NCBI GenBank assembly: GCA_902599335.1
Contig: CACKFA010000001.1
Coordinates: 1-64,000 of the forward strand
Direction of reading: 5' to 3'
Length of the DNA stretch: 64,000 bases
DNA from: an uncultured Pelagibacteraceae bacterium
Lineage (GTDB): Bacteria; Pseudomonadota; Alphaproteobacteria; Pelagibacterales; Pelagibacteraceae
This document shows, piece by piece, positions 2,725 through 41,940 of this stretch (position 1 is its first letter; each line of letters begins with the position of its first letter). Both the position numbers and the translations under genes were made by a program. The notes under the pieces were generated by a model. The model had not been told where the DNA came from and did not search any database. It saw only the letters and a program-made list of their open reading frames with translations.

Positions 2725-3672
2725 ATGAACAACTTTAAAAAAGTAGGGTTAACTGCATTAGCAGGTGCTCTAGTTTCTTTCTCTGCTAACGCAGTAGAAA
2801 TGTCAGTATCTGGTGGTGCATCTATCGGATTTACTGGTGAAGAAAAAGTAGACACTGGTAACGGTTGGTCTATGAACGACGGATTAACATTTACAGGGTC
2901 TGGAGAATTGGACAATGGTTTTAATGTTACTGTTAAACAAATAATCGATTCAAGTGATGGTGCTGTAGGTGCTATTATGGATACTAGAATCCTAACTATT
3001 GATATGGGTGATACTGGTACTTTAACTTTCTCTGGTACAGGTGGAAGTTCAGTACTTAACGCAATCGATGACGTAACTCCAACGGCTTACGAAGAGTCTT
3101 GGGATATCGTAACAGGCGCAAGTGCAATTCCTGGCGGTGTAGGTGGTGATAATATGTTCCACTATTCGAACTCATCTTTAATGGATGGTGTTACTTTAGC
3201 GGCTGCATACGTTCCATCAAACAAAGCTACTGTAGTTGAGAGTTCTTCTGACTACGGTATTACTTACACAGGTATCGATGGTTTAACTATTGGTGCAGCA
3301 ACTGGTGAAAACAATGCTACAGCGAGTGCATCAGTTGACATAACTAACATGTACGTGAAGTATGCAATGGACGCTTTCACAGTTGGTTACCAAACATCAG
3401 AATCAGACTCAGAAACAACAAATGCTGACAAAGACTTTACAGCTTTTGGTATTTCTTACGCTATGAGCGATGAAATGTCTGTGTCTTACAACCAATCATC
3501 TATTGATTATGAAAACTCTACGTTAGCAGATCAAGACTCTATGGGTCTATCTGTATCTTACGTAATGGGTTCTATGACTTTAAAAGCAGCTCATAACACA
3601 GTAGATAACGTTGCAGGTTCACAAACTGCTGACAGATCAGCTTATGATCTAAGTTTAGCGTTTGCATTCTAA
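2725..3672 (+). CDS. Outer-membrane porin
   Basis: Signal peptide MNNFKKVGLTALAGALVSFSANA, beta-rich repeats, terminal F (SLAFAF); SD AAGGAG upstream. Confidence 0.85.
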   Translation: MNNFKKVGLTALAGALVSFSANAVEMSVSGGASIGFTGEEKVDTGNGWSMNDGLTFTGSGELDNGFNVTVKQIIDSSDGAVGAIMDTRILTIDMGDTGTLTFSGTGGSSVLNAIDDVTPTAYEESWDIVTGASAIPGGVGGDNMFHYSNSSLMDGVTLAAAYVPSNKATVVESSSDYGITYTGIDGLTIGAATGENNATASASVDITNMYVKYAMDAFTVGYQTSESDSETTNADKDFTAFGISYAMSDEMSVSYNQSSIDYENSTLADQDSMGLSVSYVMGSMTLKAAHNTVDNVAGSQTADRSAYDLSLAFAF

Positions 3673-3693: not shown

Positions 3694-3724
3694 AAAAGGG
3701 CCCCTTTTTAGGGGCCTTTTTTTT
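3694..3724 (+). terminator. Rho-independent terminator of porin
   Basis: AAAAGGGCCCC-TTTTTA-GGGGCCTTTTTTTT just after the porin stop. Confidence 0.85.
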
Positions 3725-29669: not shown

Positions 29670-30831
29670 TTTAAAAAATTATCTTTTCACAAGTGAGTCT
29701 GTCTCTGAAGGCCATCCGGATAAAGTCTCTGATAGAATTTCAGATATGGTTGTTGATAGTTTTATTTCTGGAGATCCGTATTCTAGAGTTGCCTGCGAAA
29801 CACTAACTACTACAAATAAAGTTGTTTTAGCTGGTGAAATAAGGGGACCAGAAATTAAAAAAGATGAATTAATTCAAAAAGTAAGGAATTGTATAAAAGA
29901 TATTGGTTATGACCAAGAAGGATTTACTTGGAAAGAAGCCACAAAAATTGAAAGTCATTTACATTCCCAATCAGCTGATATTGCTATGGGAGTGGACTCA
30001 TCAGGAAATAAAGATGAAGGAGCTGGAGATCAAGGTATCATGTTTGGATACGCATGTAATGAAACAGATGTTTTAATGCCAGCACCAATTCATTATTCTC
30101 ATAAAATTTTAAGATTGATGGCGGAAGACAGAAAGTCAGGAAAGTTAAAAAATATTGAACCAGACTCAAAAAGCCAAGTAACATTTGAATATGTTGATGG
30201 AAAACCTTCAAAAGTAAAATCTGTAGTTATCTCTTCACAACATTCAGCTGATGTTAATCAAGTACAAGTAAGAGATTTATTAAGACCTTATATGTTAAAA
30301 TCTATTCCTGAGAATTTTCTTAATGGTTTCAATGAAGATGAGTTTTATGTAAATCCAACAGGTAATTTCGTGATTGGTGGTCCCGATGGAGATTGTGGTT
30401 TGACAGGTAGAAAAATTATTGTCGATACATATGGTGGCGCTGCACCTCATGGTGGTGGCGCTTTTTCAGGAAAAGATCCAACTAAAGTTGACAGATCGGC
30501 AGCTTACGCGGCAAGGTATATTGCTAAAAATGTTGTGGGTTCAAAAATTGCTGAAAAATGTTTAATTCAATTAGCTTATGCAATTGGTGTATCAAAACCA
30601 CTTTCTATTTACGTTGATTTATTTGATAACGACATAGATAAAAATAAATTTGTTGTCGAAAAGATTAAAGAAAATTTTGATTTGAGCCCTAGAGGTATCA
30701 GAGAAATGTTAAATTTAAATAAACCAATATATGAAAAAACAGCCGCCTATGGTCATTTTGGTAGAGCGCCTGAAGAAAATGGTTCATTTTCATGGGAAAA
30801 AACTGATAAAACTAACGTTTTTTCTAAATAG
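29662..30831 (+). CDS. metK: S-adenosylmethionine synthetase
   Basis: [49 protein letters not shown]. Confidence 0.98.
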
Positions 30832-30837
30832 TTTCTG

Positions 30838-30865
30838 TTGAATTAAAAAAAAACTTTACTATATT
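30838..30865 (+). promoter_or_regulatory. Putative sigma-70 promoter upstream of nusA
   Basis: TTGAAT-N16-TATATT between metK stop and nusA hairpin. Confidence 0.4.
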
Positions 30866-30888
30866 GCACTTACATTATTGAACTTTAC

Positions 30889-30915
30889 AAAATGGGCTTT
30901 AGCCCATTTTTTTTT
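30889..30915 (+). terminator. Intrinsic terminator/attenuator immediately upstream of nusA SD
   Basis: AAAATGGGC-TTTA-GCCCATTTTTTTTT followed directly by GGAGC. Confidence 0.85.
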
Positions 30916-30930
30916 GGAGCAAACAAAATT

Positions 30931-32484
30931 ATGTTGAATAAAAGAGCAGATAAACTTGAATTATTAAGAATTGCTGAAGCTGTAGCTTTAGAAAAATCAA
31001 TTGATAAAGAACTAATTATAAGTTCTATGGAAACTGGTATTGCTAAAGCTGCAAAATCAAAATTTGGTCAGGAAAATGAAATTAAAGTTTCTATCAATAG
31101 AGACAATGGAGATATTGAGCTTTTCAGAAAATTGATAATCGCTGAAAATCCTGAAAATGCAAATACAGAGATAAAATTGGAAGATGCAATCAATTTGAAT
31201 GAATTAAACAAAGATAAGTCTGTTGGTGATGAAGTATTACAGCCACTTCCTTCATTTGATTTTGGAAGAATAGCTGCACAAACTGCAAAGCAAGTGATTA
31301 GTTTTAATGTAAGAGAAGCTGAAAGAGAAAGACAATTTAATGATTTCATTGACAAAAAAGATTCTATTTTAAGTGGAATTGTAAAGAGATTAGAATTTGG
31401 AAATGTAATTGTTGATTTAGGAAGAACTGAAGCAATAATTCAAAAAAATGAATTAATACCTCGTGAAAACATTAAAGCAGGTGATCGTATAAAAGCTTAT
31501 TGTTATGATGTAAGAAGAGAACCTAGAGGGCAACAAATATTTTTATCGAGAGCTCATCCTAAATTTATGGAAAAGCTTTTTGTTCAAGAAGTTCCCGAAA
31601 TTTATGATGGATTAATAGAAATTAAGTCTTCTTCAAGAGACCCCGGAAGTAGAGCTAAAATATGCGTGAAAGCAGTCGATACATCCCTAGACCCAGTTGG
31701 TGCTTGTGTTGGTATGAGAGGTTCAAGAGTTCAAGCTGTTGTAAATGAACTTCAAGGAGAGAAAATTGATATAGTTAATTGGTCAGAAGATCCTGCTATT
31801 TTAGTCTCAAATGCGTTATCTCCAGCTGAAGTACAAAGAGTTAATGTTGACAGTGAAAGAAAAAAACTTGATGTGATACTAACTGAAGAAAATTTAAGTA
31901 AAGCAATCGGAAGAAGAGGTCAAAACGTTAGACTTGCTACGAAACTCTTAAATTATGAAATTAATATAATGACAGATGCAGAAGACTCTGAACGAAGACA
32001 ATTAGAATTCAAAGAAAAAACAGAGAACTTTGTAAAAAATTTAGAGTTAGACGAAACATTGGGTCAATTACTTGTTGCTGAAGGTTATTCAACTATTGAT
32101 GATATTAAAGATAGTTCAGCTGAAAATCTGATGAAAATTGAGGGTATAGAAGAAGATACAGCAATAGCCTTAATAGAAAGAGCTAAAGAGTTTCATGAAA
32201 AAGATCAGGAAGATATTTCTCAGAGAATTAAAGAGCTAGGTCTTGAAGATGCGTTGATAAATTTAAGAGGATTAACTCCGGGAATGTTAGTTACATTAGG
32301 TGAGCAAAAAATTCTAAGTTTAGAAGATTTTGCAGATTTAGCATCTGATGAATTAACTGGTGGTTATGATGTGGTTAAAGGTGAGAGAGTGAAAATACAA
32401 GGTTATTTGGAAGATTTTGCTCTATCAAAAGAAGAGGCGGATGAATTAATTATGTCTGCGAGAAACATTGTTTATAAAGATTGA
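30931..32484 (+). CDS. nusA: Transcription termination/antitermination factor NusA
   Basis: S1 and KH domains (GACVGMRGSRVQAVVNELQGEKIDIV), C-terminal repeats; ORF-track start 30892 lies in the hairpin, ATG at 30931 preferred. Confidence 0.96.
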   Translation: MLNKRADKLELLRIAEAVALEKSIDKELIISSMETGIAKAAKSKFGQENEIKVSINRDNGDIELFRKLIIAENPENANTEIKLEDAINLNELNKDKSVGDEVLQPLPSFDFGRIAAQTAKQVISFNVREAERERQFNDFIDKKDSILSGIVKRLEFGNVIVDLGRTEAIIQKNELIPRENIKAGDRIKAYCYDVRREPRGQQIFLSRAHPKFMEKLFVQEVPEIYDGLIEIKSSSRDPGSRAKICVKAVDTSLDPVGACVGMRGSRVQAVVNELQGEKIDIVNWSEDPAILVSNALSPAEVQRVNVDSERKKLDVILTEENLSKAIGRRGQNVRLATKLLNYEINIMTDAEDSERRQLEFKEKTENFVKNLELDETLGQLLVAEGYSTIDDIKDSSAENLMKIEGIEEDTAIALIERAKEFHEKDQEDISQRIKELGLEDALINLRGLTPGMLVTLGEQKILSLEDFADLASDELTGGYDVVKGERVKIQGYLEDFALSKEEADELIMSARNIVYKD

Positions 32485-32494
32485 GTGATGAGGT

Positions 32495-34717
32495 ATGGAA
32501 AAAAAAACAAAATTAACAATTTCAGGCTCAGCCAAAAAATCAATAAAGAATATTGAGATTGCAAAAACTCAAGGAAAAAATTCTGTAGTAATTGAAAAAC
32601 AAACTGGAAAATTCTCTAGTAGAGGTGGATCTTTAAGATCTAGTAACAATAATCCAAGAACAACAACTTCAACCTTTAAAAGAGGAGTCCCACTTAAAAC
32701 TTCATTCAATCCTAAATCACCTCCTATAATAAATGATTTTGAAAAGAGAAAATTAGCAGAACAAAGAGCTACCAAAAGACTTAAAGGTGATAGTGAAAAT
32801 AAAGATAAGAAGACTTTGAAAGTAGGTACTAAGAAAAGAGAATTAAAACTAACAGTTTCTAGAGCGTTAAGTGACGAGATTGATGCAAAACAAAGAAGTT
32901 TAGCATCAGTTAAGAGAGCAAGACAAAAAGAAATTAAAAACGCTACTAAAGAAGATTCTCAAGAAAATTTAAAACCAGTTAAAAGAGACGTTAATATTCC
33001 TGAAGCAATTACAGTTAGAGAACTAGCAAATAGGATGGCTGAACAATCTAGCAATGTAATTAAGCATTTATTTGCTATGGGTGTTACTGTGACTATCAAT
33101 CAAACATTAGCTGCGGATACTGCAGAATATTTAGTTAGAGAATTTGGTCATAATCCTATTAGAGAAGAGAAAGCAGAGGAAATAATTCAAAAAATAAAAG
33201 CTTCAAGAACTGAAAATTTAAAAAATCGACCTCCGATAGTTACTGTAATGGGGCATGTTGATCATGGTAAGACATCAGTATTAGATGTTCTTAGAAGTGC
33301 AAATGTAGTTTCAGGAGAATTTGGTGGAATCACTCAACATATTGGAGCTTATCAAATTGAAAGCCAAGATAATAAATTAACATTTATTGATACACCAGGC
33401 CATGCTGCTTTTACAGAGATGAGAGCAAGAGGATCAAAATTAACAGACGTGGTTGTTTTAGTAGTTGCTGCTGACGATGGAGTTAAACCTCAAACAGTTG
33501 AGTCTATCAAACATGCTAAAGCTGCAAATGTTCCGATAGTTGTAGCTATAAATAAATGTGATTTACCAGAGGCAGATCCTCAAAAAATAAAAAATCAATT
33601 ATTAGAGCATGAATTAATTGCTGAAGATTTATCTGGTGATACTTTAATGGTTGAGATTTCAACTAAAACAAAACAAAACTTAGATAAATTAGTAGAGTCA
33701 ATAATACTACAAGCAGAGATTTTAGATCTTAAAACGGATTATGAATCTAAAGCTACAGGAATAGTTTTAGAGTCAAAAATTGATGTTGGCAGAGGTCCAG
33801 TTGCAAATATAATTGTAACAACTGGAACACTTAAGAGAGGTGATTTTTTTGTAAGTGGTTTAAAGTGGGGAAAAGTAAGAGCTATTATTAATGATAAAGG
33901 TAAAAATATTAATGAAGCATTACCTTCTACTCCTGTTGAAATTTTAGGAATAAATGGTGCAGCGAAAGCTGGAGATGATTTTATTGTTCTTGATACAGAA
34001 AAAGAAGCTAAGACACTGAGTGAAAATAGAGCTCAAGAGAGTAAGGATGGAAAAAATCCACTATCTTTTGCAACTCAAGATTCTGCTTTTTCAGATAAAT
34101 CTACTGAAGAACTAAATTTAATTATTAAATCTGATGTACATGGATCATCTGAAGCAATCAAAAATGCAATTAGTCAAATCAAACATGACGAGGTTAAACC
34201 TAAAATAATTTTATCAGATATTGGAATGGTAACAGAAACAGACGTTACATTAGCTAAAGCTTCAAATGCAGTATTAATAGCTTTCAATGTTAAACCAAGT
34301 AAAGAGGCAAAAAAACTTGCTGAAAATGAGAAGATAAAAATATCTTCTTACAATATTATTTATGAAGTTCTAGACTATATTAAACAAAGGATGTCAGGTT
34401 TGTTAGCACCAGATGTACAAGAAAAAATTACTGGTACTGCACAAATTTTAGAAATATTTAAAGTTTCGGGTGCAGGTAAAGTTGCTGGCTCAAAAGTAAC
34501 TGAAGGAGAAATTAATAGTACTTCAGATGTAAGAATTATTAGAGATGGTGCTATTATTTATACTGGAAAAGTTTCAACAATATTTAGAGAAAAAAACCAA
34601 GTTAAACAGGTAAGTGATGGTCAAGAATGTGGAATAACCGTTAAAGATTATATGGATTTCCAAAAAAATGACACAATAGAGGCATTTAGTGTTACATCTA
34701 CAGAGAGGTCAATTTAA
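32495..34717 (+). CDS. infB: Translation initiation factor IF-2
   Basis: [38 protein letters not shown]. Confidence 0.98.
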
Positions 34718-35085
34718 TGGCAGATAGAATAGGAAAACCAGTGTCACAAAGACAGTTAAGAGTAGGTGAAATGATTAAGCAGTCTTTAAGCATGATTTTT
34801 ATAAGGAATGAGGCTAAGGTGCCGAATTTAGAAACAAATACTATAACGGTTACTGAGGTTAGAATGAGTCCTGATTTAAAAATTGCTAAAGCATATGTTC
34901 TTCCATTGGGTGGAAAAGATGCTGAGGAAACAATTAATATTTTAAAGGAATACTCATTTTTAATTAGAAAAATTTTATCACAAAAAGTGGTTATGAAATT
35001 TTTACCAAAATTACTTTTTAGAAAAGATGAATCTTTTGAGTATGCGGAAAAAATAGAAAACTTAATAAAACAAACAAATAAATAG
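34717..35085 (+). CDS. rbfA: Ribosome-binding factor A
   Basis: SQRQLRVGEMIKQSLS, TVTEVRMSPDLKIAKAYVLPL. Confidence 0.93.
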   Translation: MADRIGKPVSQRQLRVGEMIKQSLSMIFIRNEAKVPNLETNTITVTEVRMSPDLKIAKAYVLPLGGKDAEETINILKEYSFLIRKILSQKVVMKFLPKLLFRKDESFEYAEKIENLIKQTNK

Positions 35086-35097
35086 GAAGAAAGAGGC

Positions 35098-35346
35098 ATG
35101 AACAAAAAGGCACAAGAATTAGCAATGCATGATAAAGATACTGGATCTTCAGAGATACAAATCGCTTTGCTAACAGAGAAAATTGAAACTCTCTCTAAAC
35201 ATATTAAGCAATTCAAAAAGGATAAACATTCATCTGTTGGATTGTTGAGAGCGGTAAATAGAAGAAAGAAATTGTTAGAATACCTAAAGAAAAATAAAAT
35301 GGATTCTTACAAAAATGTACTGTCGAAATTGAATTTAAGAAAATAG
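35098..35346 (+). CDS. rpsO: 30S ribosomal protein S15
   Basis: DTGSSEIQIALLTEKI, HSSVGLLRAVNRRKKLLEYLK. Confidence 0.97.
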   Translation: MNKKAQELAMHDKDTGSSEIQIALLTEKIETLSKHIKQFKKDKHSSVGLLRAVNRRKKLLEYLKKNKMDSYKNVLSKLNLRK

Positions 35347-35361
35347 AAGTCAAGATAGATA

Positions 35362-35396
35362 GAACGGAATGGAACGAAACGAACGAAACGAAACGG
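35362..35396 (+). repeat. GAA(A)C short tandem repeats in pnp leader
   Basis: GAACGGAATG then GAAC GAAAC GAAC GAAAC GAAAC GG; T-free 35371..35399. Confidence 0.8.
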
Positions 35397-35403
35397 AAAT
35401 GAA

Positions 35404-37476
35404 ATGTTTAAAGTATATAAGAAGGAAATTGAAGTAGCAGGAAAAAAGATAAATTTAGAAACAGGTAAAGTAGCAAGACAGGCAGACGGTGCAATAATCG
35501 CAACATGTGGAGAGACAGTCGTACTAGCAACAGTAGTAGGAGCAAAAAAAGTAAATCCTGATATGGATTACTTTCCATTATCTGTAAATTACCAAGAAAA
35601 ATATTATGCAGCTGGAAAAATTCCAGGTGGATATTTTAAAAGAGAAGCAAGACCAACCGAGAGCGAAACATTAATCTCAAGATTAATTGATAGACCAATC
35701 AGACCTTTGTTTCCTGATGAATTTAAAAACGAAGTTCAGTTATTACCAACTGTGATTTCATATGATAAAGAAAATGAACCAGATATTTTATCAATCACTG
35801 CTTCATCAGCAGCATTAGCCATATCGGGAATGCCATTTATGGGTCCTGTAGGAGCTTCAAGAGTTGGTTTTATTAATGGTAAATATGTTTTAAATCCATC
35901 TAAAGCAGATTTAGAAAAATCAAAATTAGATTTAGTTGTAGCGGGTACAAAAGATGCTGTGTTAATGGTTGAGTCTGAAGCAAGTGGTTTAACAGAGGAA
36001 GAAATGTTAAATGCAGTTAAATTTGGACATGAGGGATTTGTTCCAGTTATTGAGATGATTGAGGAACTTGCAAAAGAATGTAGAAAACCCGAGTGGACTG
36101 TTGAAAAGAAAGATTTATCAGAAGTTAAGAAAAAACTTGAAGAAACTTTTACAGAAGACCTTAAGAAAGCTTTTGCAACAAGAGACAAACAAGATAGATC
36201 AAATCAAATTTCAGATATTACTGATAAAGCTAAAAAGCTTTATGAAGAGGATGAAAATTACACCGATCTAGATGTTAACAGTCAGTTAAAAAATCTTGAA
36301 AAATCAATTGTAAGGACAGACATTCTAAAAAATAAAAATAGAATTGATGGTAGAGGTTTATCAGATGTAAGACCTATCGAATGTGAAGTGGGTGTTTTAC
36401 CAAGAGCACATGGTTCTGCATTATTTACTAGAGGAGAAACCCAAGCAATTGTTGTAGCAACTTTAGGAACATCTGATGACGAGCAAAGAATTGAAAGTTT
36501 AGATGGATTACAAAGAGAGCGATTTATGCTTCACTACAATTTTCCTCCTTTTTCAGTTGGAGAAACTGGTAGAATTGGAACAGGTAGAAGAGAAATTGGT
36601 CATGGTAAATTAGCATGGAGAGCAATTAATTCTTCATTACCAACAAAAGAAGCATTTCCATATACTTTTAGAGTAGTTTCAGAGATTACAGAATCTAATG
36701 GTTCCTCTTCAATGGCTACTGTTTGTGGAACTTCTTTAGCATTAATGGATGCTGGAGTGCCGATTAAAGAGCCAGTTGCAGGTATTGCAATGGGATTAAT
36801 TAAAGAAGGAGATGATTTCAGCGTCCTTTCAGACATCTTAGGTGATGAAGATCATCTTGGTGACATGGACTTCAAAGTTGCTGGAACTAAAGATGGAATT
36901 ACTTCTCTTCAAATGGATATCAAAATTACAGGTATTACATTTGAAATTATGGAACAGGCATTAAGCCAAGCTAAAGATGGAAGAGTTCATATCTTAGGAG
37001 AAATGAATAAAGCATTATCAGCTTCAAGATCTGATGTTGGAAAACATACACCAAAAATGGAACAAGTTAATGTTGATAAAAAAGACATTGCTGCTGTAAT
37101 TGGAAAAGGTGGAGCAACAATCAGAGAAATTGTTGAAAAGTCAGGAGCAAAAGTAGATGTTAATGATGAAGGTGTAGTAACTGTTGCTGCTCCTGATGAA
37201 GAGTCTAGAAACATCGCAATGCAAATGATTAAAGATATAACTGCAAAAGCTGAACTAAATAAAATTTATTCAGGAAAAGTAATGAAGATTATGGAGTTTG
37301 GTGCATTTGTTAATTTCTTAGGAAAACAAGATGGACTGGTTCATATTTCAGAGCTTGCAGATAAAAGAGTAGCTAAAGTTACTGATGTTGTAAAAGAAGG
37401 TGACGAAGTAAAAGTTAAAGTAATTGGTTTCGATAGAGGTAAAGTTAAACTTTCTATGAAACAAGCTTCTGAGTAA
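35404..37476 (+). CDS. pnp: Polyribonucleotide nucleotidyltransferase
   Basis: [19 protein letters not shown]-like, C-terminal KH ([11 protein letters not shown]) and S1 domains. Confidence 0.98.
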
Positions 37477-41458: not shown

Positions 41459-41875
41459 ATGTCTTTAAAAGGAAGTAAAACAGAAGAAAATTTAAAAGAA
41501 GCATTTGCTGGTGAAAGTCAAGCAAATAGAAGATATCTTTATTTCGCACAAAAAGCTGACATAGAGGGTTACAATGATGTAGCTGCAGTTTTTAGATCAA
41601 CAGCCGAAGGTGAAACTGGTCACGCACATGGTCATTTGGAGTATCTAGAAGAAGTTGGTGATCCAGGAACTGGTATGCCAATTGGTGAAACAAAAGCAAA
41701 TTTAGCTTCGGCAGTACAAGGCGAAACTCATGAGTATACTGATATGTACCCTGGTATGGCTAAAACAGCTAGAGAAGAAGGCTTTGAAGAAATTGCTGAC
41801 TGGTTTGAAACTTTAGCTAAAGCTGAAAAATCACACGCTGGTAAATTTCAAAAAACTTTAGAGTCTATTAGCTAA
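41459..41875 (+). CDS. Rubrerythrin (ferritin-like, short form)
   Basis: [50 protein letters not shown]. Confidence 0.95.
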
Positions 41876-41884
41876 TCAAATTTC

Positions 41885-41909
41885 TTAGTGGGCGACTAAC
41901 GCCCACTAA
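41885..41909 (+). other. Perfect 10-bp GC-rich hairpin between rubrerythrin and Fe-S gene, no T tract
   Basis: TTAGTGGGCG-ACTAA-CGCCCACTAA. Confidence 0.8.
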
Positions 41910-41940
41910 AAACAATTCGAATTTCAAAAAACTTAATTAT

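Follow-up and report, generated by a model that had tools for sequence, protein, structure and literature searches.

What does an intrinsic terminator do when it stands directly in front of nusA? The question is raised by a 64,000-nt stretch of DNA (contig CACKFA010000001.1, assembly GCA_902599335.1), referred to here over its whole length as the window, whose closest named relatives are uncultured Pelagibacteraceae, that is, SAR11. Between the metK stop at 30831 and the nusA ATG at 30931, a first-pass annotation of the window had noted a short hairpin with a T-run, and suggested that NusA uses it to attenuate transcription of its own operon. From the analyses described below, this element is best explained as a rimP-leader-type transcription attenuator at which termination is stimulated by NusA, a reading that we consider probable.

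The presence of an intrinsic terminator abutting the nusA Shine-Dalgarno (SD) sequence was confirmed by sequence, by coordinates and by comparison of its fold with shuffled sequences. A folding energy of -11.4 kcal/mol (z -4.3) was calculated for the predicted 44-nt leader, and none of 200 shuffles was equally stable. TGGGCN4GCCCA-T9 matches once in the window, where 0 matches are expected, and GGGCN3-8GCCC..T6 has a single match in the 1.27-Mb assembly. Since the SD motif GGAGC follows directly behind the U-tract, it would be present only in read-through RNA. We found no antiterminator, in the sense of a run complementary to the GGGC arm, by sequence or fold in the ∼17-nt leader segment, nor any extended protein-binding structure in the leader. 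The TTGAAT-N16-TATATT element reported just upstream is present. Taken alone such a match is unremarkable (103 sites of this type against 92 expected in 18 kb), and it gains weight as a putative promoter only through its conservation.

To follow this layout we compared the regions upstream of nusA in two families of the order and in 80 other named Pelagibacteraceae loci, possibly with some genomes repeated under other labels; the aligned leaders numbered 167, with 137 from family 1 (118 distinct) and 30 from family 2. Hairpin and U-tract precede nusA in every relative inspected, comprising these leaders and the outlier genera. The GGGC/GCCC stem is invariant in family 1 (137/137), with a four-base loop that is free to vary. 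All 30 family-2 leaders keep GGG/CCC in a stem of GTGGG/CCCAC or CCCGC, the inner c/g pair being mostly replaced. Alignment of the spacer, which had been put forward as a check on the stem, thus revealed conservation together with paired changes, since pair 6, an A-U in one family, is G-C in the other, and C-G, U-G, U-A and A-U all occur at pair 1. The U-tract is T9 in 165 of the 167 leaders and T10 in the other two. Homopolymers drift easily, and the 75 nt upstream, examined as a control in family 1, have a longest A-run of anything from 3 to 10; the fixed length of nine therefore suggests selection on U-tract length itself.

A pattern search recovered the hairpin motif in 223 of 248 genomes of the order, mostly once per genome. 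Among the 25 genomes without a match, 19 lacked a detectable nusA N-terminal domain, one had a partial domain and five had a variant hairpin. These five outlier genomes (L270-L274), which comprise one genus of the family plus a single further genome, carry GGGCTTAGGCCC-T9, in which GGGC/GCCC is kept and the pair flanking the GGG/CCC core on its outer side is broken. A shared linear element 5' of the hairpin was suggestive by eye between the two families and is not established, and comparison by eye with the rRNA leader (boxA) of the source genome gave nothing convincing. A phage origin was rejected, as a search of 2.9 million viral contigs gave 2 stray matches.

In 162 of the 167 leaders the promoter-like element is conserved upstream of the hairpin, at a fixed spacing from it. 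In family 1 it reads TTGA[A/T]N-N15-19-TATA in 133/137 leaders, with a spacer of 16 in 128 and the -10 ending 25-28 nt before GGG, and in family 2 TTGATT-N17-TATAGA or TATAAG in 29/30 leaders, 29-34 nt before the hairpin GGG. This conservation predicts that transcription should start ahead of the terminator and run into it. The first-pass statement that no promoter has room to follow the hairpin was upheld, as the interval from U-tract to start codon is too short for one. A promoter inside the hairpin was also rejected because it is not conserved: a 9/12 match placing the start in or after the hairpin was seen in 12/137 family-1 leaders and in 0/30 leaders of family 2.

These counts bear on whether the hairpin simply ends metK transcription as an ordinary 3' terminator, with a nusA promoter overlapping or following it. 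Its position 58 nt past the metK stop would suit this explanation, as would the 12 family-1 leaders just mentioned. However, the gene upstream of the hairpin differs by lineage, being metK in some and trmB in others; in family 2 and in L204, a genus of the window's own family outside its genus, trmB is placed between metK and nusA, and there the hairpin is found 3' of trmB. Since the upstream gene is exchanged and the hairpin keeps its nusA-proximal place, it travels with nusA. Given also the conserved promoter ahead of the hairpin, we rejected a metK terminator as very unlikely.

A published counterpart of the element is the rimP-leader, a predicted attenuator described by Naville & Gautheret (2010, PMC2965389) as a terminator whose stem, GGGc...gCCC, is unusual and is followed by a U-tract, placed before rimP-nusA-infB and lacking an antiterminator; it ranked first, as the most ubiquitous of their predicted attenuators, and was tentatively assigned to NusA control. 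Of 29 scorable alphaproteobacterial rimP loci, 18 carry the strict motif no more than 220 nt ahead of the RimP domain; 180 kb of sequence from elsewhere gave 2 matches, and the inverse CCCG..CGGG motif was found at none of these loci. RimP_N is present in 252/288 genomes of the class, but in 0/121 relatives, and it did not score above the cut-off in any of the 248 genomes of the order. The SAR11 element matches a rimP-leader left on nusA after loss of rimP, and would thus represent a known attenuator as it occurs in SAR11. Since the order has lost RimP, this protein is excluded as the sensor there, and retention of the motif on nusA after an order-wide loss favours NusA in that role. Outside the order, a similar hairpin precedes nusA in four genomes without rimP (L210, L212, L214 and L218). 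A NusA tree placed the SAR11 order in one clade (98/99) and left the other rimP-less lineages, and the number of independent losses, unsettled.

Under the mechanism we propose, transcription would start about 20 nt upstream of the hairpin, and RNA polymerase would soon meet the short GGGC/GCCC hairpin and U9, where it would either stop, releasing an RNA of ∼44 nt, or read on into nusA-infB-rbfA-rpsO-pnp. NusA bound to the polymerase would stimulate hairpin folding and termination, so that its own operon would be transcribed less when NusA is abundant and more when NusA is scarce, no antiterminator being involved. We infer for SAR11 both termination in vivo and the setting of its efficiency by NusA. 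Of the autoregulatory attenuator proposed in the first-pass annotation, the attenuator part held, the order promoter-hairpin-U9-nusA being conserved, in the fully read SAR11 leaders, whichever gene lies upstream; the feedback part is a likely function, and is strengthened by the absence of RimP from the order and by precedent in Bacillus subtilis and the rimP-leader family. In B. subtilis, NusA-stimulated termination in the leader of its own operon is established (Mondal et al. 2016, as cited in PMC12288461), and in Escherichia coli, NusA represses the rimP-nusA-infB operon (Plumbridge 1985 and Nakamura 1985, as cited in PMC2965389).

Several points weigh against regulation by NusA. NusA-dependent terminators of B. 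subtilis are weak in hairpin and/or U-tract, whereas U9 is a strong tract. At nusA of eight alphaproteobacteria that lack RimP and do not belong to the order, no such motif is present, indicating that the regulation is not universal. The element could also terminate constitutively, ending a fixed fraction of transcripts and setting a basal operon ratio with no sensing of NusA or feedback; this is the main rival, which we regard as improbable. An exact U9 and a near-invariant stem would suit a fixed set-point, and neither sensor nor antiterminator is visible, but the B. subtilis counterpart does respond to NusA (PMC12288461). It is also possible, although we think it doubtful, that NusA recognises the GUGGGC/GCCCA(C) hairpin arms sequence-specifically, making the bare 44-nt leader a minimal NusA sensor in which the length of U9 is the fixed set-point. 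If true, this would explain the invariance of the element across the order.

The hairpin might instead act mainly in read-through RNA, as a 5' stabiliser or as a modulator of ribosome access beside the SD, since it ends 20-25 nt from the nusA AUG with the SD directly behind the U-tract. The SD, however, lies outside the terminator hairpin and predicted pairing around it is weak, so that the SD sequestration offered as an alternative in the first-pass annotation has little structural support, and a stabiliser would need neither an exact U9 throughout the order nor a G-rich 5' arm. We consider such a role highly improbable. Attenuation by another product of the operon, or by ribosome coupling, is the least likely explanation of all; genes for IF2, RbfA, S15 and PNPase do share the operon, but the leader offers no extended structure to bind them and no leader peptide. 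The ATG within the hairpin (30892) was rejected as the start of such a peptide or of an N-terminal extension, since among the 57 leaders having this ATG only 38 keep it in the nusA reading frame, and family 2 mostly has GTG GGT TAA at that position.

Table 1. Coordinates of the leader elements and genes of the nusA operon in the window
Feature	Position	Strand	Basis or remark
Promoter-like TTGAAT-N16-TATATT	30838..30865	+	TTGAAT 30838-30843, TATATT 30860-30865
Predicted transcription start	about 30871-30873	+	From promoter-like element
Short leader stretch ahead of hairpin	30872..30888	+	Sequence, fold; ∼17 nt
Terminator hairpin AAAATGGGC-TTTA-GCCCATTTT	30889..30910	+	Conserved stem, paired changes between families
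U-tract, exactly nine T	30907..30915	+	Leader alignment
nusA SD GGAGC	30916..30920	+	Sequence; directly 3' of U-tract
nusA	30931..32484	+	Pfam scan (NusA_N, S1, KH RNA-binding domains); presumed sensor, first target gene
infB, rbfA, rpsO, pnp (remaining operon behind attenuator)	32495..37476	+	Open reading frames, Pfam scan

The order nusA-infB-rbfA-rpsO-pnp behind the hairpin was confirmed in the window by open reading frames (ORFs) and Pfam domains. Within the operon (30931-37476), the usual companions rimP, ylxR and truB are not found.

A simple scan over 464 kb of the source genome (the window plus L219-L238) placed the nusA hairpin as the weakest of 10 strong-type terminators, at -10.9 versus -15.6 to -21.1 kcal/mol, in agreement with the published finding that terminators in 5' position are less stable (PMC2965389). 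With only these 10 in 464 kb, the source genome apparently uses few intrinsic terminators. One of the few canonical ones, GGGCCCC-loop-GGGGCC-T8, lies at 3697-3724, directly 3' of a porin-like ORF (2725-3672). A strong hairpin, TTAGTGGGCGACTAACGCCCACTAA, at 41882-41912, 3' of a rubrerythrin-like ORF (41459-41875), has the same GTGGGC/GCCCAC core as at nusA but no T-run on the + strand.

SAR11 rank among the most abundant marine bacteria, and only a small number of their regulators are understood. Across this order a strongly conserved stop signal stands before nusA, by which NusA most probably restrains its own synthesis. Loss of rimP with the leader kept on nusA amounts to a natural experiment, which, for the predicted attenuator with the widest distribution, speaks against RimP and for NusA as the effector. 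A leader of ∼44 nt would also provide a very small test system for the action of NusA on a terminator and for possible reading of the stem sequence.

Among known systems, the nusA operon attenuator of B. subtilis is similar in that its 5' leader carries an intrinsic terminator (PMC12288461) with a promoter upstream of it, which in SAR11 corresponds to a conserved promoter-like element with a predicted start. It differs in that NusA-stimulated control of read-through was demonstrated there by experiment, which in SAR11 is an expectation from the layout, and in that the B. subtilis operon begins with rimP (ylxS). The E. coli operon shares the lowering of its own expression by NusA (cited in PMC2965389), but the leader in Gammaproteobacteria is more complex. 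The gammaproteobacterial rimP leader of Rfam (RF01770) is alike in operon and terminator position and differs in its tandem two-hairpin form; Rfam families gave only sub-threshold matches on the window, which scored 16.5 bits (+ strand) with RF01770 against a gathering score of 47. The rimP-leader of PMC2965389 differs from the SAR11 element in that the latter fronts nusA itself, has a U-tract of exactly nine and has a predicted leader of ∼17 nt before the hairpin, compared with a leader of about 180 nt in B. subtilis. It nevertheless shares several features with the SAR11 element: both have a G-rich 5' arm in a GGGc...gCCC stem and a U-stretch directly after it, both lack an antiterminator and any larger conserved structure, and both are operon-specific. 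The rimP-leader lies 4-130 nt from the gene start before the nusA-infB operon, with NusA as proposed effector, a position that the SAR11 element occupies in modified form, before nusA-infB in an order from which rimP is absent.
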